This document shows positions 153 to 37,180 of a stretch of 37,180 nucleotides of DNA, one piece after another. The position numbers were made by a program, and so were the translations under genes. The DNA lies in IMG/VR virus record IMGVR_UViG_3300030106_006868, positions 1 through 37,180 of that record; one strand, given 5' to 3'. The stretch is from a virus. The notes below the pieces were generated by a model. That model worked only from the letters and a program-made list of their open reading frames with translations. It was not told the origin of the DNA and did no database searches. Position 1 is the first letter of the stretch, and each line of letters begins with the position of its first letter.

Positions 153-188
153 AATCTAGGTAATCTAGGTAATCTAGGTAATCTAGGT
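153..188. repeat. 9-bp tandem array 1 (AATCTAGGT x4)
   Basis: Four perfect AATCTAGGT units begin right after GGGC and end in AATTTTGCGG. This is the shortest of three related arrays; the others are at 1707-1805 and 3217-3333. All three begin after GGCA or GGC and all lie in the same orientation. A 6-bp inverted repeat (CGGAAA/TTTCCG) follows before the conserved tail. Confidence 0.9.
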
Positions 189-231
189 AATTTTGCGGTT
201 TCGGAAATTTTTTCCGATGAAAACCCAGCTC

Positions 232-262
232 CTTATAGGCCTTCCAGAATTTGGCCGTTTTT
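232..262. repeat. conserved cassette tail, copy 1
   Basis: The stretch reads CTTATAGGCCTTCCAGAATT followed by TGGCCGTTTTT. It matches the tails behind the other two 9-bp arrays (1847-1880 and 3375-3406), sharing TATA-GG and TCCAGAATTTGG. The spacing from array end to tail is similar in all three copies, about 41-44 bp. No function is known to me. Confidence 0.7.
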
Positions 263-264
263 GG

Positions 265-342
265 GGCGGTGCTGCAGGGCGGTGCTGCAGGGCGGTGCTG
301 CAGGGCGGTGCTGCAGGGCGGTGCTGCAGGGCGGTGCTGCAG
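265..342. repeat. 13-bp tandem array (GCTGCAGGGCGGT x5-6)
   Basis: GCTGCAG occurs at 271, 284, 297, 310, 323 and 336 with an exact 13-bp period. It is related to the array at the left edge but has a fixed period and the spacer GGCGGT. A period of 13 is not a multiple of three, so apparent repeats in translated frames are an artefact. Confidence 0.9.
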
Positions 343-365
343 AGCGGACCTGCAGAGCAGAGCGC

Positions 366-403
366 AAAAAAAAACGGCCAGTCTAAGACTGGCCGCAAAA
401 AAA
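366..403 (-). terminator. intrinsic terminator after the last gene
   Basis: Reading leftwards, an 8-bp perfect stem GGCCAGTC/GACTGGCC with a 3-nt loop (376-394) is followed by nine T. It lies about 20 bases beyond the stop of the 260-residue gene, so it closes the leftward transcript. The opposite side carries seven A, so it could also stop rightward transcription weakly. Confidence 0.85.
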
Positions 404-421
404 CGGGTTGTGAAAGCGCAT

Positions 422-1204
422 TTAAACGCCGACGAAAAATCCCCGGCTATGCTCAATCATTTTTAGCGCTTTCGCGCGCGATTTCGGAAGTTTAGTTTTC
501 AGACCAACGAAAACTCCGCGCGGATCGCGAAAACGCAAATCGTCAGAATCCCCATCAATCACCGGAATTCCATTCCAGGCACCCGGGATCGTTCCGCGCA
601 ATGAAAACCGATCGTAAAACGGAACCGCAACGTTGATCCCGGATTCTACCATCCGGCAAGCTTGCGAGACATCAATGTTTTCGCTCCAACTAAACGTCAG
701 ATGATAGTTCTTTGGCATTTCACCAGATTGGAATCGGCGCGCGTACGATCTGACCTTAGTGTAGCCATAGATGTTCCAATGCCGAAAATCATCAAACAGC
801 CAGGGCGCGATTTGTGGCCAGTCCAGATCACTAAACGTGTTAGGCCGAAACGCTACTGGAATATTGAGTCGGCGCGATTTCCGGTCGATTGCCGCGCACT
901 CAGCCCGCAGAATCTCGCCAAACAATTCTGGATCCTGAAATAGCAGCCTAGTTCGACCGATCCGAGATCGTCGAATTGTACCAGGGTCGTATTCTGCGCG
1001 CCCCCGATGCGCAACGCATGGTGCAACGCACAATCCCGCATCGGGACAAACATTGTGACCGGACGATTTCGCCGGCGACAATGACAATCCAGCATTGTAA
1101 AACCCGATCGCTTTCGCGAATTTTGAGTTGTGACCTGGCAAACTCAGGAGACGGGTGAATCCGTATTCCCGCGCGTTTTCGGCGCACTCTTTTAAACTCA
1201 ACAT
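422..1204 (-). CDS. Gp88/DUF7227-like phage protein
   Basis: The product is 260 residues. An N-terminal block has LLSLPGHNSKFAKA, then NAGLSLSPAKSSG, then a cysteine cluster (VCPDAGLCVAPC) and a basic stretch ending in RIGRTRLLF. A second block has PVAFRPNTFSDLDW and later NIYGYTKV. This order (small-residue run, CP..GLC..PC, R-I-x-R-T-x-x-F, then an N-x-x-S-D-x-x-W/YTKV region) fits a widespread phage family (Gp88/DUF7227-type) whose biochemical role is unknown to me. A metal site at the cysteines is possible. The ATG follows GAGGGGTTGAGAA, and the gene starts 3 nt after the upstream stop. It is the last gene of the leftward series and ends at a strong terminator. Family assignment is by recalled motif pattern only. 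Confidence 0.7.
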   Translation of the reverse strand: MLSLKECAENAREYGFTRLLSLPGHNSKFAKAIGFYNAGLSLSPAKSSGHNVCPDAGLCVAPCVAHRGRAEYDPGTIRRSRIGRTRLLFQDPELFGEILRAECAAIDRKSRRLNIPVAFRPNTFSDLDWPQIAPWLFDDFRHWNIYGYTKVRSYARRFQSGEMPKNYHLTFSWSENIDVSQACRMVESGINVAVPFYDRFSLRGTIPGAWNGIPVIDGDSDDLRFRDPRGVFVGLKTKLPKSRAKALKMIEHSRGFFVGV

Positions 1205-1207
1205 TTC

Positions 1208-1321
1208 TCAACCCCTCAAAAAAAACGGAATGACGATAAAAATCAGGACAAGCGCGCACTGGCCTAAAATCAGCGCGCCTATGGTGCACCAGATACAATC
1301 TAAAATCCGTTGCCGATTCAC
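1208..1321 (-). CDS. 37-residue membrane protein
   Basis: A GTG-started frame of 37 codons encodes a short basic N-terminus (MNRQRILD), then about 25 hydrophobic residues, then LRG. That is a single membrane segment. AGGAGAAG lies 4 nt upstream of the GTG. The start overlaps the stop of the upstream 70-residue gene as GTGA, and the stop lies 3 nt before the next ATG, so it fits an operon of coupled genes. Size and topology would suit a small holin or membrane regulator, but nothing shows which. Coding is supported by the ribosome site and packing, not by homology. Confidence 0.6.
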   Translation of the reverse strand: MNRQRILDCIWCTIGALILGQCALVLIFIVIPFFLRG

Positions 1322-1530
1322 TGCTCTTCTCCTGCCTGTTGAGTTAACACCGGCGCCTTATGGCAGGTAAAACGGATGGCGCCCCAGAATAAACTGACCT
1401 CAAAATCCAGTTTGGAAAACGTTTCCGTTTTGATAACGGGCGGCGCTTTCAGGCTACGGACTGGCGCAACGCGATCCTGCTTCCTGCGTTGCATTTCGGC
1501 TTCCAGCCTAGTTGGTTTCTGCTTCGGCAT
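1318..1530 (-). CDS. hypothetical 70-residue protein
   Basis: I do not recognise this protein. It begins MPKQKPTRLEAEMQRRK with a basic, helical N-terminus and ends in a more hydrophobic stretch (VSLFWGAIRFTCHKAP). I chose the ATG at 1530 because GGAG lies 8 nt upstream; a TTG start 13 codons earlier lacks such a site. Its stop overlaps the GTG of the 37-residue membrane gene, which argues that both are translated. It is the first gene after a 700-bp gap containing array 2. Confidence 0.6.
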   Translation of the reverse strand: MPKQKPTRLEAEMQRRKQDRVAPVRSLKAPPVIKTETFSKLDFEVSLFWGAIRFTCHKAPVLTQQAGEEQ

Positions 1531-1706
1531 CTCAGCGGCTCCACTTAGTAAAGAAATGAACGCCAACAAGTCTATTGAACATTACGACGCAATGGAGCGC
1601 CAATATTCAATATATTTCTACAGATAGCAGAAATCGGCATTGCGCCGGGAGGCAGTCTGCGCTAGCTTGTTTTCGTCGCGGCCGCAGACATTGTGTTAAA
1701 CTAGGC

Positions 1707-1805
1707 AGTCTGGGTAGTCTGGGTAGTCTGGGTGGACTAGGTAATCTGGGTAATCTGGGTAATCTGGGTAATCTGGGTAATCTGGGTAATCTGGGTAATC
1801 TGGGT
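1707..1805. repeat. 9-bp tandem array 2 (11 units)
   Basis: Three AGTCTGGGT units, one GGACTAGGT and seven perfect AATCTGGGT units run without gaps. The array starts after CTAGGC and runs out into AATCTACGGTTTTGGCCG. The base changes fall in blocks, as expected if units expand by slippage or unequal exchange. Confidence 0.95.
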
Positions 1806-1846
1806 AATCTACGGTTTTGGCCGTTTCCCAGGGCGGGGCGCGCGTT

Positions 1847-1880
1847 CCCTATAGGGATCCTCAGAATTTGGGGGCTTTTT
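1847..1880. repeat. conserved cassette tail, copy 2
   Basis: The sequence CCCTATAGGGATCCTCAGAA followed by TTTGGGGGCTTTTT matches copies 1 and 3, most closely copy 3 over CAGAATTTGGGGGCTTTT. It begins about 41 bp after the array, as in the other copies. A rightward terminator follows 5 bp later. Confidence 0.75.
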
Positions 1881-1885
1881 CAGGA

Positions 1886-1923
1886 CTGACCAACTGTTTG
1901 AAATGTTGGTCAGGATTTTTTTT
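1886..1923 (+). terminator. rightward intrinsic terminator after cassette 2
   Basis: A perfect 9-bp stem CTGACCAAC/GTTGGTCAG with a 10-nt loop (1886-1913) is followed by GA and eight T on the plus strand. On the minus strand no T-run follows it. All recognised genes are leftward, so this implies a rightward transcript through cassette 2, or protection of the array from reading in that direction. I could not identify a strong rightward promoter. Confidence 0.65.
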
Positions 1924-2151
1924 ATTTCCTGAAAGCAAATTGTGCGGGAACCTAATTGCAGAAAGCTCTGGCAGCCCTTCCGCCGCGATAGTGCGATTGT
2001 CCTGTCCGCCGCAGCATCTGTCTCGCAAAAGCCCGCCTGCCCGCTGCACGCTCGCACAGGTGGCTGCCATAGCCATTAATCGCGGCAAGCCCGTATCGTG
2101 CAACGTTGGCGGCCGCCTGACCACAACAGAAGGATCCTGCTCAAAAGCGCA

Positions 2152-2202
2152 CAAAAATGCCCCAGCAAACAGCCAGAAGTTCTGGAGCTAATTTGCCGGG
2201 GC
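2152..2202 (-). terminator. leftward terminator after the 3046-2236 gene cluster
   Basis: A long hairpin at 2159-2202 has outer arms GCCCC-GCAAA/TTTGC-GGGGC with one mismatch, and an inner stem CCAGAA/TTCTGG. Read leftwards it is followed by ATTTTTG. It lies shortly after the stop of the 65-residue gene, so it fits an intrinsic terminator for that operon. Confidence 0.75.
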
Positions 2203-2206
2203 GATA

Positions 2207-2226
2207 GGGGGGGGGTCTTGTTTTTC
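2207..2226 (-). repeat. GAAAAACAAGA-C9 motif, copy 1
   Basis: On the minus strand GAAAAACAAGA runs into nine C, placed between a stop codon and the terminator. The same motif (AAAACAAGA with eight C) occurs at 3735-3751, again directly behind a stop codon. The meaning is unknown. Confidence 0.6.
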
Positions 2227-2235
2227 AGGGCGGGG

Positions 2236-2433
2236 TCATTTTTTTGCCGGCGGCCGTCCCATCCCTCCCAACGCTGGGAGTTTTTTCCGCGCCGACTTCG
2301 TAAGCGCTTCCTCGAGGATCCGTACTGCCCACTGGGATTTGTTTGGATACCCAGCTTTCGCAGCCGCAGCTTCCCACGCCTGCTGCCTGGCTCCGCCGTC
2401 TGAAATGTTTATCTGCAGATTGCTGATGCTCAT
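2236..2433 (-). CDS. small ribbon-helix-helix-like protein
   Basis: The 65-residue product starts with a possible short strand (NLQINISD), followed by helix-forming segments AWEAAAAKAGY and SQWAVRILEEALTK, and a basic tail. This order resembles ribbon-helix-helix DNA-binding proteins, where a strand is followed by two helices with a turn near the GY..S residues. The similarity is in pattern only. Its ATG overlaps the stop of the upstream 100-residue gene as ATGA, so translation is likely coupled. It could be an operon autoregulator. Confidence 0.5.
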   Translation of the reverse strand: MSISNLQINISDGGARQQAWEAAAAKAGYPNKSQWAVRILEEALTKSARKKLPALGGMGRPPAKK

Positions 2434-2732
2434 TCGTACACTCCCTCCAAAGTTATGTTGTTGTAAACATAGTCACCGTTTTCGTCTTGGGGCCATCGCG
2501 GCGCGACCATTTCACAGTTCAGCTGATTCCGGCGTCGCTTCACGGCGTGATAGCTCTCAATCAAATCAGTGTACCTGCAAATCGCGACAAATTTGGCGTC
2601 TAGCTCATGATCAACTAAATCAGCTGCCAGCAAGGAGGCTGTCTCTACGAGTTTCTCCTCAGCTTCCAGGAGGAAAGTTTCATCAGCGATGATTTCTCGC
2701 TCGTTTTTCTTTCGCGGTTTTGTGTTAGTCAT
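2430..2732 (-). CDS. hypothetical 100-residue protein
   Basis: Not recognised. It has a very basic N-terminus (MTNTKPRKKNER), a central helical acidic region (LEAEEKLVETASLLAADLVDHELDAK) split here by the reader at SLL, and a tyrosine-rich end. No cysteine pairs or membrane segments are visible. I used the ATG at 2732; a TTG nine codons upstream is possible, and neither has a strong ribosome site. It overlaps the next gene by ATGA and follows the 94-residue gene after 29 nt. Confidence 0.55.
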   Translation of the reverse strand: MTNTKPRKKNEREIIADETFLLEAEEKLVETASLLAADLVDHELDAKFVAICRYTDLIESYHAVKRRRNQLNCEMVAPRWPQDENGDYVYNNITLEGVYE

Positions 2733-2761
2733 TGCTTTCGCTTTCTGGGTACGGGTCAAAT

Positions 2762-3046
2762 TTAGTGATAGGTGAAAAGGATTGAATCTGCGTCACCTTT
2801 TACCAAAAACGCTTCTGGCAACATGTCGGTCATAATTTGCCAGTAGTGTTCGGCCGCTGGAAAATCCTGATGGTCAATCCAGTTCCAGAGTCGCGTGGCG
2901 TTGATGAGCCATCTATATGACAGCTCACTGCAACCGCCGAAATCCTCGAGGGATTGCAAATAGATTGTCGCGCACAGCTTTCGCACTCGAGTCTCATTGT
3001 CTCGCTGCGTTAACAGGGCGTGAAAGTGATTTTTGAAAGCGCCCAT
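2762..3046 (-). CDS. hypothetical 94-residue protein
   Basis: Not recognised. The sequence is tryptophan- and tyrosine-rich in its second half (SYRWLINATRLWNWIDHQDF) and soluble in character, suggesting a compact helical protein. The ATG follows GAAAGGCAAAGCA, an acceptable ribosome site. It is the first gene behind the gap containing cassette 3 and heads a three-gene run ending at the terminator at 2152-2202. Confidence 0.6.
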   Translation of the reverse strand: MGAFKNHFHALLTQRDNETRVRKLCATIYLQSLEDFGGCSELSYRWLINATRLWNWIDHQDFPAAEHYWQIMTDMLPEAFLVKGDADSILFTYH

Positions 3047-3216
3047 TGCTTTGCCTTTCGTTGATGTGTTTACAGAAACCGTGTTCAGCGCTATGCTGCT
3101 TCCAGCACTGCGGCCGTAAAAGAATAACGCACAACCCCGAAATGATAATGGACTTTTTGTAATTTTATTGGATTTTCGAGGAAGTTTTCGAGGATGGCTG
3201 CGGCAGTGCTTTAGGC

Positions 3217-3333
3217 AAGCTGGGTAAGCTGGGTAAGCTGGGTAAGCTGGGCAAGCTGGGTAAGCTGGGTAAGCTGGGTAAGCTGGGTAAGCTGGGTAAG
3301 CTGGGCGGTCTGGGCGGTCTGGGCGGTCTGGGT
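3217..3333. repeat. 9-bp tandem array 3 (13 units)
   Basis: Ten AAGCTGGG(T/C) units are followed by three GGTCTGGG(C/T) units, all contiguous, then AATTTGGCG. It starts after TTAGGC, like array 2. Unit variants are again grouped. Directly behind it, GCGACTTT (3340-3347) can pair with AAAGTCGC about 20 bases downstream. Confidence 0.95.
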
Positions 3334-3374
3334 AATTTGGCGACTTTCACAAAAAAATCGCAAAGGAAAAAGTC

Positions 3375-3406
3375 GCTATATGGCCGTCCAGAATTTGGGG
3401 GCTTTT
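3375..3406. repeat. conserved cassette tail, copy 3
   Basis: GCTATATGGCCGTCCAGAAT plus TTGGGGGCTTTT matches copy 2 over CAGAATTTGGGGGCTTTT and copy 1 over GGCC-TCCAGAATTTGG. The distance to the array is again about 41 bp. Confidence 0.75.
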
Positions 3407-3535
3407 AGCGACGTGCCAAACACCCCAACATTAATGCGCGCAATAGAAACCGCGTTTCATGGCGCAAGCGGCGACTTGAGAAATCGATGCGCAGGTGTGT
3501 TTGCAGTGCAAAGCCACCCGCATTTTCCCTGACGG

Positions 3536-3715
3536 TTATTTCGGGAGAAACCTTCCGTCCGCATCAATCGTGACTGAAGTGTATGCTGGTCGATGGTCTC
3601 GTTTTTCTCGAGAGATTTTATCCCTGATTGCTGCAAGACGTTGCCGGCGATCAGCCATTTCAGACTCCAGCTTTTGGGCTTCATCCTGCAAGCGATTAAT
3701 TTCCTGTTTCTCCAT
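3536..3715 (-). CDS. 59-residue coiled-coil protein
   Basis: This short frame encodes MEKQEINRLQDEAQKLESEM and then ADRRQRLAAIRDKISREKR, a continuous charged heptad-like helix of about 40 residues. A short tail ends VTIDADGRFLPK. Leucine and isoleucine fall at regular 3-4 spacing. It was found by reading the minus strand directly. The codon pattern and helix are convincing, but the ribosome site is weak. It follows the HEXXH gene by about 35 nt. Function unknown. Confidence 0.55.
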   Translation of the reverse strand: MEKQEINRLQDEAQKLESEMADRRQRLAAIRDKISREKRDHRPAYTSVTIDADGRFLPK

Positions 3716-3734
3716 AGCCGGTTTCTATTTGCGA

Positions 3735-3751
3735 GGGGGGGGTCTTGTTTT
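3735..3751 (-). repeat. AAAACAAGA-C8 motif, copy 2
   Basis: AAAACAAGACCCCCCCC lies on the minus strand immediately behind the stop of the HEXXH gene. It is the second copy of the motif at 2207-2226. Confidence 0.6.
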
Positions 3752-4035: not shown

Positions 4036-4953
4036 TCAAACCTCCGCCTCTCTAATTTCAAATTTCACAACGGCTTCAGTTTTGTTCTTAATATTCCTTT
4101 CTTCTCTCCCGACATAAAATCTCAGCCAATAAGCACCAATTGGTTTTGGAGGTTTCCCGGTGCCGATATGCCAGCCACCAACGCCGTCACGGTATTCATC
4201 CTTATACGTCGGGCATTTAACGTACACGACTGGGCGATGCACAACATTGCCCTGCTCATTAAGCCGGATCCTCATGTCTTTAGTAATCCACTGGTCATGG
4301 GTATGACCGCTGCACATAATGTCAGCATTGTCGACGTAAGCGAGTTGCCGACTGCGTTGGATCATATCTTTGGTCACCGGGCCACCGCCCCCATAGCCAT
4401 GGGTGTGCCAAAGGCGAACTGACTGACGCTGCGTTGAGCCGATCGTGAACCGAAACACACACCAGCCGGTATATCCCGTGCAAAGAAACGGTGCTCCAGT
4501 TCGATCTCTAAGGCGTGCCGCCAACCTTTCAATAAGGTTAGTCTCGTGGCGTTTTAGGATTGAGGCTTCGTGATTCCCTGCTCCCTGCATAACCCAATTG
4601 TGCGCGTATGGCTCATAGAGGTCCGCATGGGTCGACACAAGAGCATCGAGGTAATCATCAACCTGATGTTCTGGCCGCAGTTTTGATTTGCTTTTTCTGG
4701 GATCCCAAGCCCCCTGCATAGCACAGAAGATGTCCCCAAAATCGAGGATTCCTGCGTTACGTTCTTTCGCTTCATCGAGGTGTTTAATTTGCAGATCAAT
4801 GCAGCTGTCAGGGTTATCTGTATGGGCATCTGACCTTAAGAGAAACCAAGCCTCATCGCCGGCTTTTAGTGTTTGCCGAACCGTTACCACATTCGGAGTG
4901 GAAGCCTGCTCCACTGTAAATGGAAGTTTGTCTTTTCCCTTGACCTGTCCCAT
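4036..4953 (-). CDS. calcineurin-like metallophosphoesterase
   Basis: The 305-residue protein has the full metallophosphoesterase signature: D42-x-H44 (SDAHTDN), GD at 73-74, GNHE at 126-129, H183-T-H185 and SGHTHD at 215-220. These residues bind the two-metal centre in this fold. The length fits single-domain members. Phage members include DNA or nucleotide phosphoesterases; the substrate here cannot be read from sequence. The ATG has AAGGAG 6 nt upstream. It sits at the end of the lysis-like block but has no signal peptide, so a cytoplasmic nucleic-acid role is more likely than an envelope role. Confidence 0.85.
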   Translation of the reverse strand: MGQVKGKDKLPFTVEQASTPNVVTVRQTLKAGDEAWFLLRSDAHTDNPDSCIDLQIKHLDEAKERNAGILDFGDIFCAMQGAWDPRKSKSKLRPEHQVDDYLDALVSTHADLYEPYAHNWVMQGAGNHEASILKRHETNLIERLAARLRDRTGAPFLCTGYTGWCVFRFTIGSTQRQSVRLWHTHGYGGGGPVTKDMIQRSRQLAYVDNADIMCSGHTHDQWITKDMRIRLNEQGNVVHRPVVYVKCPTYKDEYRDGVGGWHIGTGKPPKPIGAYWLRFYVGREERNIKNKTEAVVKFEIREAEV

Positions 4954-7984: not shown

Positions 7985-8088
7985 AGGAGCCTCGCTTTTC
8001 TGGTTTGGAGGAAGCTCAATGTACCGGCGTACACACCATTTCGTCAACGCGGGTTGCTTTTCACCTACTCACGCAGGAACTGGCAAAC

Positions 8089-8140
8089 CGTCATGAATGA
8101 CCGTCATGAATGACCGTCATGAATGACCGTCATGAATGAC
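8089..8140. repeat. 13-bp direct repeats CGTCATGAATGAC x4
   Basis: Four perfect copies lie head to tail, followed by a partial CGTCAC. Each unit is itself an inverted repeat, GTCAT-GA-ATGAC, as expected for a dimeric DNA-binding protein. A frame through them is not coding. Confidence 0.95.
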
Positions 8141-8169
8141 CGTCACCGTTTTGGGGCATCGGTGACGGT
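8139..8169. other. 10-bp perfect inverted repeat
   Basis: ACCGTCACCG (8139-8148) pairs with CGGTGACGGT (8160-8169) across an 11-nt loop. No T-run follows on either strand, so it is not an ordinary terminator. It overlaps the last 13-bp repeat. Confidence 0.85.
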
Positions 8170-8183
8170 TTCCCGCAGACCTT

Positions 8184-8218
8184 GGGAATTTTGCGGGAAA
8201 TTCCCGGCGGAGTTCCCG
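8184..8218. repeat. 35-bp block, copy 1
   Basis: The block contains GCGGGAAATTCCCGGCGGAG and ends in TTCCCG. It is repeated at 8267-8301 with one base change. The centre GGGAAATTCCC is palindromic around its middle base, and further CGGGAA hexamers lie between the copies. Confidence 0.9.
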
Positions 8219-8266
8219 AACTTCCCGGAAAGCCCCCAAACAGCAGGTAACCACCGGGAATCTTAC

Positions 8267-8301
8267 GGGAATTCTGCGGGAAATTCCCGGCGGAGTTCCC
8301 G
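8267..8301. repeat. 35-bp block, copy 2
   Basis: This is the second copy, 83 bp from the first, differing by one base (ATTCTG instead of ATTTTG). Such spacing is close to eight helical turns, so both could be bound on the same face. Confidence 0.9.
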
Positions 8302-8420
8302 CAAGAAGATTCATCAAGAAATACATCACCCCCCCCTCACTCTATAAAACATGGGTGAGAAATACCTATAAAAGCCGAGAAGTTGATTTCTCGACAGGAA
8401 GGGGAGACCCCATTGATGTA

Positions 8421-8462
8421 TTTGAAGAATATAATATATATTAACATATATATGTATATACC
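8421..8462. other. AT-rich stretch
   Basis: About 42 bases are nearly all A and T with alternating TATA runs (ATAATATATATTAACATATA). It could be a DNA unwinding element or hold -10 hexamers. On the minus strand TGGTATATA resembles an extended -10. Confidence 0.6.
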
Positions 8463-8647
8463 ATGTAAAACACTGTGTTTCCGCCACTCATCTCGCGCGA
8501 GATCTGTCAAAAAAGACCTTGAGGCAATGACGCACGATTTGACGTTTCTTTTCAGAAAGATCAGATCTGTCAAGAAATGTCAAAGCCGGCTTTGCGGTTC
8601 GCTGACACAGGCATGCAACGGTTGCGGAATTCGTTGCAGCCACAAAC

Positions 8648-19241: not shown

Positions 19242-21911
19242 TTATTCAGTCCCCAGCAATTCAGGCAGGTTAAAGCTGGCAGAATCAGGCACGACAATAG
19301 AAATCTTTGAGCCTGCTGTCGCCACTGTTCCAAAGACTGCGGTGGAAGTTGCGTCAGATCGCCAGACGTTGTAAGTCGCTCCGCGAATCATATTTGCAAA
19401 CTGGACCTCGCCGCTTGAATCAGACGACACTGTCCTAACAGCGGTGTCTAAAGCCTCTCCTGCAGTCCCCGGCCCTGCTGTTAGCTGAATACTGATGTCA
19501 ACACCTTGCTCTAAAGCATAATTTTCATCGCGAACAACAAGCACTCCCGTAGAAGTGTCGCTACCTGTTGATGGAGTAATTGTGCTCTGTGCGATGTCTT
19601 TGTTTACGGTAGCGTCAGCTGTAACCGTGAGAGTTCCTGTTTCTGACGCATAACCCGCTTTAGTTATTGAGTAATTATAGGTGGCATCGTCTAAAGCAAA
19701 GACCGCGTTTCCGCTCGAGTTAGTGCTCGCGACAAACGTGTTAACACCTTCTGTTAATCGCACTTTAGCGTTTTCCAGATTTGCTGGTGTAGACTCAGTG
19801 TCTTTCACGTTTACTGTAATAGTTCTTGCACCGGAGCCAGCGACGCCATCAACATCATCGGCAATTGTCTGCAGCGTTTGCAGCGTGACGGCCGACGATA
19901 CGTCCCCATTGTCGAAGAGATTTTCCCAGTTGCCGGCTACGCGACCGCTGGACGATTCTGTGATGTTGGTGGACAGAATCGATGTCAGATTTGCATCAAC
20001 CGTTCCTGTTACTGTCGCCTGATCGACATCGTCAACGGTTTTTGTCGTCGTAGTGTCTAAGTCGTAGAACTGGCTGATATTGTCAGCAAGGTTTGACGCT
20101 GTCGTTTCTGTAAGCGGAGTTCCGAGCACTTCAGTCAGGTTTGCGTTAAGCTGGCCGGTCACAACTGCAGTTCCGATGTCAGACAAAAGCTTCGAGCTTG
20201 CTTGATCATTATTGTCATGCAGTGTTGACCAGTTTTGCGCTAACCGTCCTGATGTGGTTTCTGTAATTGCAGTTCCGAGATACTGAACTACGTTTGCGTC
20301 CACAGTACTGCCAAACGTTGCAGTTCCGATGTCGTTCTGCACTTTTGTTGAAGCTGCATCCCCGTTATCGAAAAGCGTGGAGAAGTTGGCAGCCAGCCTT
20401 CCTGCCGTCGTCTCAGTAACGTTCGATCCTTTAATTTGTGTGACGTTGGCGTCAATTGATCCACTAACCGTTGCCGACCCGATGTCATCGACGACTTTTG
20501 TGGTAGCACTGTTCGAGTTCTCGAAAAAGGTGTCAAAGTTACCAGCAATTCTGCCGCTGGTGGCTTCGGTCAGTGCAGTGCCAAGGATCGATGTGATGTT
20601 CGCATCAACGCTGCCACCGCCACTGCTGGCCGCCGCCGTGTCCAGAAGCAGATCAAGTCGCCCGCCGTTAACCCAATCCGTTTGCAGTTCGTTCGTGTCA
20701 GCGAGGATGTCATCGACGTTTCCATCAATGGCCGCAATTTCATTATCGATGGTCGTCAACGTCGCCGGGATTGTCGAATTGGTGTCGACCAAAATGTCGT
20801 CAACGTTCGAGTCGATGGTCGCCAGCGTGGCGGGCAGTGTGGTTCCGGTGTCAACCAGAATTGCATCAACGTTGGAATCCATCGCTGCAATTTCATTATC
20901 GATGGTTGTCAGCGTGGCCGGGATGGTCGTTCCGGTGTCTTCAAGAATGTCGTCAACGTTGCCATCGATCGTTGCAAGTGTCGTTGGCAGTGTGGTTCCG
21001 GTGTCTTCAAGAACCAGATCAACGTTGCCATCAATGACCGCGATCTCATTATCGATGGTTGTCAGCGTGGCTGGGATGGTCGTTCCGGTGTCTTCAAGAA
21101 TGTCGTCAACGTTGCCATCGATCGTTGCCAACGTGGCGGGGAGTGTCGTTCCGGTGTCTTCAAGAACCAGATCAACGTTGCTGTCGATCGTTGCGATTTC
21201 GTTATCGATTGTCGTGAGACTCGCTGGAATGGTCGTGCTCGTGTCTTCAAGAATGTCGTCAACGTTGCCATCGATTGTGCTGAGTTGCGTGTCGAGGTTT
21301 GCGCTTGCAAGGCCGATGGCACTTCGAACGCCGGCCGCGTCAAGTCCACCACCCGCTGCCGCTGTATCGAGCAGCAGGTCAAGCCGACCCCCATTCACCC
21401 AATCTGTCTGCAACTCATTCGTGTCACCGAGCACCAAATCAACGTTACTGTCGATCGTTGCGATTTCGTTGTCGATGGTCGTCAGCGTGGCGGGTAGTGT
21501 GGTTCCTGTGTCAACCAGAATGTCTGCAATTTCCGTTGCAATTTCTCCAAACGAGCCTGCGGTGGCGTGTGCTGCTTGTGACTCATCCCAAACCGCATCG
21601 GCCGCAGCATTGGCAATCGTCGTCTCTGTCGCTGCGGTGTAGTCAAAGGTCGACGGGTAAACGTTGATCGTATGATTGATCGCGCCGCTTAAAACCATTG
21701 TGTACGACACGTGATCGTAATTCGTTTCAGCCTGTGTCGGCACGTACGAATAGACGCCCTGACCCTCGTGTGTCTTCGTGCCAGATCCGGTTGCGAGTGT
21801 CCCTCCGTCGCCAAGGACATAGACCGTTGGCGTTCCAGTGGTGACCGCTGTTCCATCGGTCGCTGAGATGCCCTGAAAGCAGATCGTCTGGGAAGCTGTA
21901 TTCTTAAGCAT
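19242..21911 (-). CDS. long tail fibre with 51-residue repeats
   Basis: The 889-residue protein has an N-terminal beta domain (about 1-95), then residues 130-430 built from alternating 22- and 29-residue units (TTLPATLATIDGNVDDILED and TTIPATLTTIDNEIA...), a 51-residue period. The 29-residue unit equals the 22-residue unit plus one heptad. Residues 435-670 contain five further 51-residue repeats with DAN, TE-T-GR-A-N-F and DNGD motifs. A C-terminal Ig-like or carboxypeptidase-regulatory-like domain (about 697-785) and a last beta domain follow. It probably forms a trimeric coiled-coil fibre for host recognition. The DNA repeats may vary in number. Confidence 0.75.
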   Translation of the reverse strand: MLKNTASQTICFQGISATDGTAVTTGTPTVYVLGDGGTLATGSGTKTHEGQGVYSYVPTQAETNYDHVSYTMVLSGAINHTINVYPSTFDYTAATETTIANAAADAVWDESQAAHATAGSFGEIATEIADILVDTGTTLPATLTTIDNEIATIDSNVDLVLGDTNELQTDWVNGGRLDLLLDTAAAGGGLDAAGVRSAIGLASANLDTQLSTIDGNVDDILEDTSTTIPASLTTIDNEIATIDSNVDLVLEDTGTTLPATLATIDGNVDDILEDTGTTIPATLTTIDNEIAVIDGNVDLVLEDTGTTLPTTLATIDGNVDDILEDTGTTIPATLTTIDNEIAAMDSNVDAILVDTGTTLPATLATIDSNVDDILVDTNSTIPATLTTIDNEIAAIDGNVDDILADTNELQTDWVNGGRLDLLLDTAAASSGGGSVDANITSILGTALTEATSGRIAGNFDTFFENSNSATTKVVDDIGSATVSGSIDANVTQIKGSNVTETTAGRLAANFSTLFDNGDAASTKVQNDIGTATFGSTVDANVVQYLGTAITETTSGRLAQNWSTLHDNNDQASSKLLSDIGTAVVTGQLNANLTEVLGTPLTETTASNLADNISQFYDLDTTTTKTVDDVDQATVTGTVDANLTSILSTNITESSSGRVAGNWENLFDNGDVSSAVTLQTLQTIADDVDGVAGSGARTITVNVKDTESTPANLENAKVRLTEGVNTFVASTNSSGNAVFALDDATYNYSITKAGYASETGTLTVTADATVNKDIAQSTITPSTGSDTSTGVLVVRDENYALEQGVDISIQLTAGPGTAGEALDTAVRTVSSDSSGEVQFANMIRGATYNVWRSDATSTAVFGTVATAGSKISIVVPDSASFNLPELLGTE
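20622..21524 (-). repeat. DNA repeats of 66/87 bp within the fibre gene
   Basis: The codons for the 22- and 29-residue units repeat nearly word for word, for example GTCGTTCCGGTGTCTTCAAG-type stretches (plus-strand sense) at intervals of 66 and 87 bp. High nucleotide identity suggests recent unequal exchange. Confidence 0.85.
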
Positions 21912-37146: not shown

Positions 37147-37180
37147 CAATTTGTGACTATACTTTTTCAAAACAGAAAGG

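Follow-up and report, generated by a model that had tools for sequence, protein, structure and literature searches.

What do three composite repeat elements do in the gaps between phage genes that nearly all run the other way? The question is raised by IMG/VR record IMGVR_UViG_3300030106_006868, a siphophage genome of 37,180 bases (the whole stretch analysed here, called the window) in which nearly all genes are leftward. A sequence-only reading had described three cassettes in one orientation, each made of a tandem array, a spacer and a tail, and our coordinates bear this out: all three lie on the + strand, in the gaps at 1-421, 1570-2235 and 3047-3749. The answer that we favour, with about an even chance of being right and drawn from sequence comparison, is that each cassette would mark an intergenic boundary of transcription, in what is probably a cos siphophage of planctomycetes, with the tail acting as a rightward intrinsic terminator. 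The parts of the cassettes, and a terminator behind the second tail, are as follows.

153-191, + strand: array of cassette 1, AATCTAGGT repeated 4.3 times (Tandem Repeats Finder, TRF)
192-233, + strand: spacer of cassette 1, 42 bp, with a box GCGGTTT and a hairpin CGGAAA/TTTCCG
234-262, + strand: tail of cassette 1, TATAGG..CAGAATTTGG..TTTTT, with a terminator-like stem GGCC/GGCC
1704-1810, + strand: array of cassette 2, 12 nine-bp units (AGTCTGGGT, GGACTAGGT, AATCTGGGT)
1811-1849, + strand: spacer of cassette 2, 39 bp, with a box ACGGTTTT
1850-1880, + strand: tail of cassette 2, terminator-like
1886-1922, + strand: a further rightward intrinsic terminator, strong, immediately behind tail 2, stem CTGACCAAC/GTTGGTCAG, then T8
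3214-3335, + strand: array of cassette 3, 14 nine-bp units (AAGCTGGGT/C, then GGTCTGGGC)
3336-3376, + strand: spacer of cassette 3, 41 bp, with a box GGCGACTTT and a stem GCGACTTT/AAAGTCGC
3377-3406, + strand: tail of cassette 3, terminator-like

One diverged unit precedes the arrays of cassette 2 (AAACTAGGC) and cassette 3 (GCTTTAGGC). From the array end to TATA the distance is 42, 39 and 41 bp in cassettes 1, 2 and 3, and roughly 270-330 bp separate each tail from the start codon of the next leftward gene. The resemblance of the tails exceeds chance. The pattern TATAT?GG-N4-6-CAGAATTTGG-N4-TTTT matched exactly the three cassette tails on the + strand of the window, nothing on the - strand, and nothing in 60 windows simulated by a second-order Markov model; an independent repeat search recovered tail pairs, one of 35 nt with 77% identity and one of 34 nt with 79%. 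Across all of IMG/VR, the strict motif matched a single contig, belonging to the relative G004. An exact query with CCAGAATTTGGGGGCTTTT gave two IMG/VR matches (L004 and L005), which we set aside as chance matches within coding sequence.

Two relatives that share this genome end, G004 (35,885 bases) and G001 (37,862 bases), reveal which part of the cassette is kept. G004 retains the order of array, spacer and tail, but its arrays, of 15-bp and 24-bp units, are unrelated to those of the window. It has a single tail (L029 7583-7611, - strand) adjoining the homologue of gene 2762-3046, the position of cassette 3, and a second site, a 45-bp tandem run with five tail copies, adjoining the homologue of gene 2236-2433; both sites have an array in front. 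When the cassette-3 gap was aligned with G004, two conserved blocks stood out, the tail itself and TTGTAAWTTTATTGGAWTT near the promoter side. G001 has one tail (L030 1785-1812) without an array, again at the cassette 3 position bordering the homologue of gene 2762-3046. The stretch between the array end (or the CG..TTT box) and CAGAATTTGG measures 53, 51 and 53 bp in the three window copies and 53 and 50 bp in those of G004, so that a spacing of 50-53 bp is kept in all five full copies though the intervening sequence can hardly be aligned. Because the G004 arrays bear no relation to those of the window and the G001 tail lacks one altogether, while the spacing is fixed, the kept unit is a module of about 70 bp rather than the array. 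Its layout is a box CG..TTT, 39-42 bp, TATA(T)GG, 5-6 bp, CAGAATTTGG, 4 bp and T4-8. The earlier proposal that something acts on the whole layout gains support from the order and spacing kept in G004. That reading had also counted unrelated microsatellites in related phages as a sign against the cassette; the G004 arrays are indeed unrelated, but the layout survives.

The terminator reading is favoured on four grounds: the stems formed by the flanks of the core, a T-run on the + strand only, the rightward open reading frame (ORF) that precedes the G001 tail, and the second terminator behind tail 2. Real flanks folded better than shuffled ones around an unchanged core (combined p = 1.3e-4) over seven copies (w1, w2, w3, g4b, g4a1, g4a5, g1) that are partly dependent, two coming from one tandem run and w3 and g4b being corresponding copies. 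The 12 nt after the core contain 4-8 T on the + strand, versus 2-3 on the - strand. In G001, about 20 bp separate the tail from the stop codon of a rightward ORF before it, which encodes a membrane-protein-like product of 34 aa and has a strong Shine-Dalgarno sequence, AGGAGAGG. The terminator at 1886-1922 is strong (-14.5 kcal/mol, z -4.6). Of the three possibilities offered by the sequence-only reading, a rightward RNA thus fits best, since the tail resembles a rightward terminator.

The dependence among the folded copies tempers this reading, and several other results weigh against it. The folding energies of the tails alone are ordinary (z +0.2 to -1.0), and pair counts in a fixed register show no covariation above shuffles. 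In the 45-bp tandem array of G004, the internal copies retain the core sequence without the stem (g4a2, p = 0.67), which suggests a constraint on sequence, not on structure, and conservation of the loop sequence goes beyond the needs of an ordinary terminator. Upstream of the arrays, no rightward promoter was found. This phage end is, moreover, present in three genomes only. The hairpins earlier ascribed to the spacers are weak by free energy alone, with z values of -1.5, +0.6 and -1.7 for spacer plus tail.

How would a rightward terminator serve a genome of leftward genes? At the 3' end of the module, a stem of 3-7 pairs with an A-rich loop and then a T-run would end transcripts running opposite to the genes, sparing the next leftward gene antisense read-through. 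In G001, such a unit would carry the small membrane-protein ORF; in the window and in G004, the corresponding stretch consists of non-coding repeats, from which a short non-coding RNA could arise. The arrays would be fast-turnover minisatellites with no fixed sequence requirement. We infer rightward transcription and termination in the window, hence a short rightward RNA, and likewise the neutrality of the arrays. The cassette is most likely an unusual transcription-boundary module on a known principle, with an intriguing conserved spacing. In the place of the array, G001 has a rightward run of very small membrane-protein-like ORFs (L030 1414-1768), possibly lysis or moron genes, which truncates the start of the gene homologous to 2762-3046.

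The main rival, a serious alternative though a distinctly less probable one, reads the tail on the leftward, gene-sense strand as a regulatory DNA site: an A-tract, a near-palindromic operator CCAAATTCTGG, 6-8 bp, and TATAGG as a -10-like element. A phage regulator would bind the tail, and the spacer hairpin and array would form the leader of a leftward transcript, akin to a Q-controlled late promoter before cos and terminase. We keep it as the main rival because the persistence of the core in the G004 tandem copies, even where the stem is gone, is the pattern of a protein-binding site. Read leftward, each tail does precede a leftward gene start or the cos/terminase end, TATAGG-like boxes recur 6-8 bp from the core, and the 50-53 bp between the boxes come to about five helical turns. 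But there is no -35 consensus, inspection by eye shows a separate sigma70-like promoter, also leftward, downstream of the array before gene 2762 and its G004 homologue, and the stem-prone flanks and one-sided T-run would be superfluous for an operator. The late promoter PR' of phage lambda, controlled by Q, has a palindrome between promoter-like boxes and a leader ahead of cos. The modules resemble it in their own palindrome between promoter-like boxes and in a leader-like stretch near the cos end, but no Q homologue, -35 or pause element was identified for them. A T7-like promoter reading of CTATAGGG was dropped, no single-subunit RNA polymerase having been recognised among the larger proteins scanned.

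A bolder extension of the terminator reading, which we regard as rather doubtful, is that planctomycete cos phages would make short rightward RNAs of a new family, each with a repeat-derived leader free to change in sequence, a fixed structured module of about 70 nt and a terminator of its own; every genome would have several copies, which would act in trans or as antisense at operon boundaries. A covariance model built from the five full copies recovered the held-out G001 copy at E = 1.6e-5, and the 376 kb of sequence from related phages and prophages yielded no other convincing match. No Rfam 15 covariance model reached its gathering score in the window, L029 or L030, blastn against phages and plasmids gave no match, and the literature searched held no description of such modules. 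In 170 host-family genomes there was no tail, no array and no homologue of the 2236-2433 protein.

The arrays invite a further reading, which we judge improbable, as iterons or centromere-like sites for a phage replication or partition protein, as the sequence-only reading had offered. Their nine-bp units stand head-to-tail as in the iteron and parS arrays of phages and plasmids, and the conserved small gene 2236-2433 lies between cassettes 2 and 3. Its 65-aa product looks ribbon-helix-helix-like by eye, with no Pfam or PHROG match, no PDB match, and an AlphaFold model (predicted template-modelling score, pTM, 0.38) too uncertain to use. An unrelated phage contig, L258, also holds many GTCTGGGTAA sites at 4060-4460, with two inverted three-unit arrays flanking an A-rich hairpin region, which looks like an origin or operator region. 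Against this, the units vary from one gap to the next and bear no relation to those of G004, though the small protein keeps its N-terminal ISNLQIN segment there. The G001 tail has no array, and none of the proteins scanned was recognisable as a partition ATPase. A unit common to the arrays and the relatives, as iterons call for, was not found, and no conserved unit supports a possible binding role of the arrays. The gap at 8048-8647 by the primase gene is the better candidate for a replication origin, judging from its 13-bp iterons (ACCGTCATGAATG x4.5), inverted GGGAAATTCCCG repeats and AT-rich TATATA stretch in a large non-coding region.

Unit lengths are 9 bp in the window and 15 and 24 bp in G004; near the genome terminus, G001 and G002 have 9-bp arrays and G004 a 24-bp array. 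Because arrays tend to be alike within one genome and need not be between genomes, we read the differences as fast minisatellite turnover. The terminus array of G001 and G002 (L006 145-229 and L032) has degenerate 9-bp GGYARTCTG units and runs on the other strand from the cassettes of the window, and each of its units translates as G-x-[LIF]. The array pattern occurred in 22 IMG/VR contigs, including G001 and G002; the rest are mostly repeats that arose by chance, often within possible reading frames. Intergenic look-alikes without a tail were seen in L258 and in L242/L254, the latter with degenerate 9-bp GG-rich arrays (L242 1000-1250, - strand) and a 20-mer, GGGCAAGATAGGTAATCTGG, that is shared with G001 by this unrelated phage contig. 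At least four GGG tracts per array, as a G-quadruplex would call for, are present in arrays 2 and 3, but array 1 has none. A Rho rut-site on the C-rich leftward strand was rejected, the feature being missing from the G004 arrays and the G001 terminus array.

That the cassette is a mobile or transposing unit, also suggested earlier, is very unlikely. Three copies stand in one genome, and the identical 23-nt spacer segment in two G004 copies suggests copying within a genome; but the copies occupy corresponding positions in three phages, with none elsewhere in the searched genomes, and outside these phages neither IMG/VR nor the 170 host-family genomes held one, so that the differing positions or foreign genomes expected of a miniature inverted-repeat transposable element (MITE) or repetitive extragenic palindromic (REP) sequence were not seen. 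We can hardly credit that the arrays encode (Gly-X-Leu)n on the + strand, for although every unit preserves x-[LIFM]-G, the G001/G002 terminus array varies in a mostly codon-like way and a weak Collagen match (E = 0.005) fell below the cut-off, the stop-free frame of the arrays follows from their 9-bp unit, the frame differs from tail to tail, no conserved translation is seen, and the only start codon is a weak, distant TTG at 1575 for cassette 2, so that the earlier remark on a lack of coding sense was fair.

Among known systems, Rho-independent terminators are like the modules in placing a hairpin before a T-run on one strand; the G001 module, moreover, stands immediately behind a rightward ORF. 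A stem-loop precedes the same-strand T-run in the modules too, save in the internal tandem copies. The modules differ in their conserved core and loop (CAGAATTTGG), fixed upstream stretch of about 50 bp, tandem array in front and short stems (3-7 pairs). The oop-type RNA of lambda is a short antisense transcript ended by an intrinsic terminator. The short transcript proposed here would likewise run opposite to the surrounding genes and end at an intrinsic terminator; unlike oop, the modules have several copies and no identified promoter. The start-associated and extended start-associated sequences (SAS/ESAS) of cluster K mycobacteriophages (PMC3203893) are similarly tied to corresponding genes across relatives. 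They lie immediately upstream of start codons, whereas a distance of about 270-330 bp separates the modules from the next start; the modules also have tandem arrays and a T-run at their end.

Gene products seen in the window include a lambda-type portal, a gpA-type terminase, a tape measure, a primase and a helicase. Judging from genes chosen by eye among the listed ORFs, about 90% of it is coding, and the cassettes sit in three of its four largest uncovered gaps (3047-3749, 1570-2235, 8048-8647 and 1-421). Other features beside the cassettes are these.

1-152, no strand assigned: 12-bp minisatellite CGTGCTGCAGAG (TRF), left of cassette 1 and extending to the contig end
264-355, no strand assigned: 13-bp minisatellite GGGCGGTGCTGCA, right of cassette 1
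3155-3177, no strand assigned: block TTGTAATTTTATTGGATTT beside cassette 3, conserved with G004, a promoter-side element of unassigned direction

A strong leftward intrinsic terminator (10-bp stem, T9) follows the GP88-family gene at 374-396. The 889-aa ORF at 19242-21911 contains long direct repeats (20712-21275, period 153/306 bp) and is possibly tail-fibre-like. Six contigs share a homologous start base (window position 37180 on the - strand and the starts of L008, L010, L011, L012 and L034), 12 bp before [CG]AAAAARTRTAG and upstream of the terminase; it looks like a physical genome end, a cos site with a 12-nt cohesive end. One of the six comes from a Fuerstiella metagenome-assembled genome (MAG), and the sequences of G001, G002 and G004 continue across the putative end. 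The close relatives of the terminase are on other IMG/VR contigs and on contigs in a Fuerstiella MAG (84% identity) and a Planctomycetaceae MAG (70%), and because of the latter two the host is probably a planctomycete, as judged by the terminase alone. No named phage is a close relative, the best terminase matches being below 30% identity.

The modules offer a case in which a phage intergenic module keeps its layout and spacing while its tandem repeats are swapped wholesale between relatives. They also supply concrete candidates for transcription boundaries in phages with a link to Fuerstiella-like planctomycetes and, if the rightward RNA is made, would constitute a new multi-copy phage RNA.
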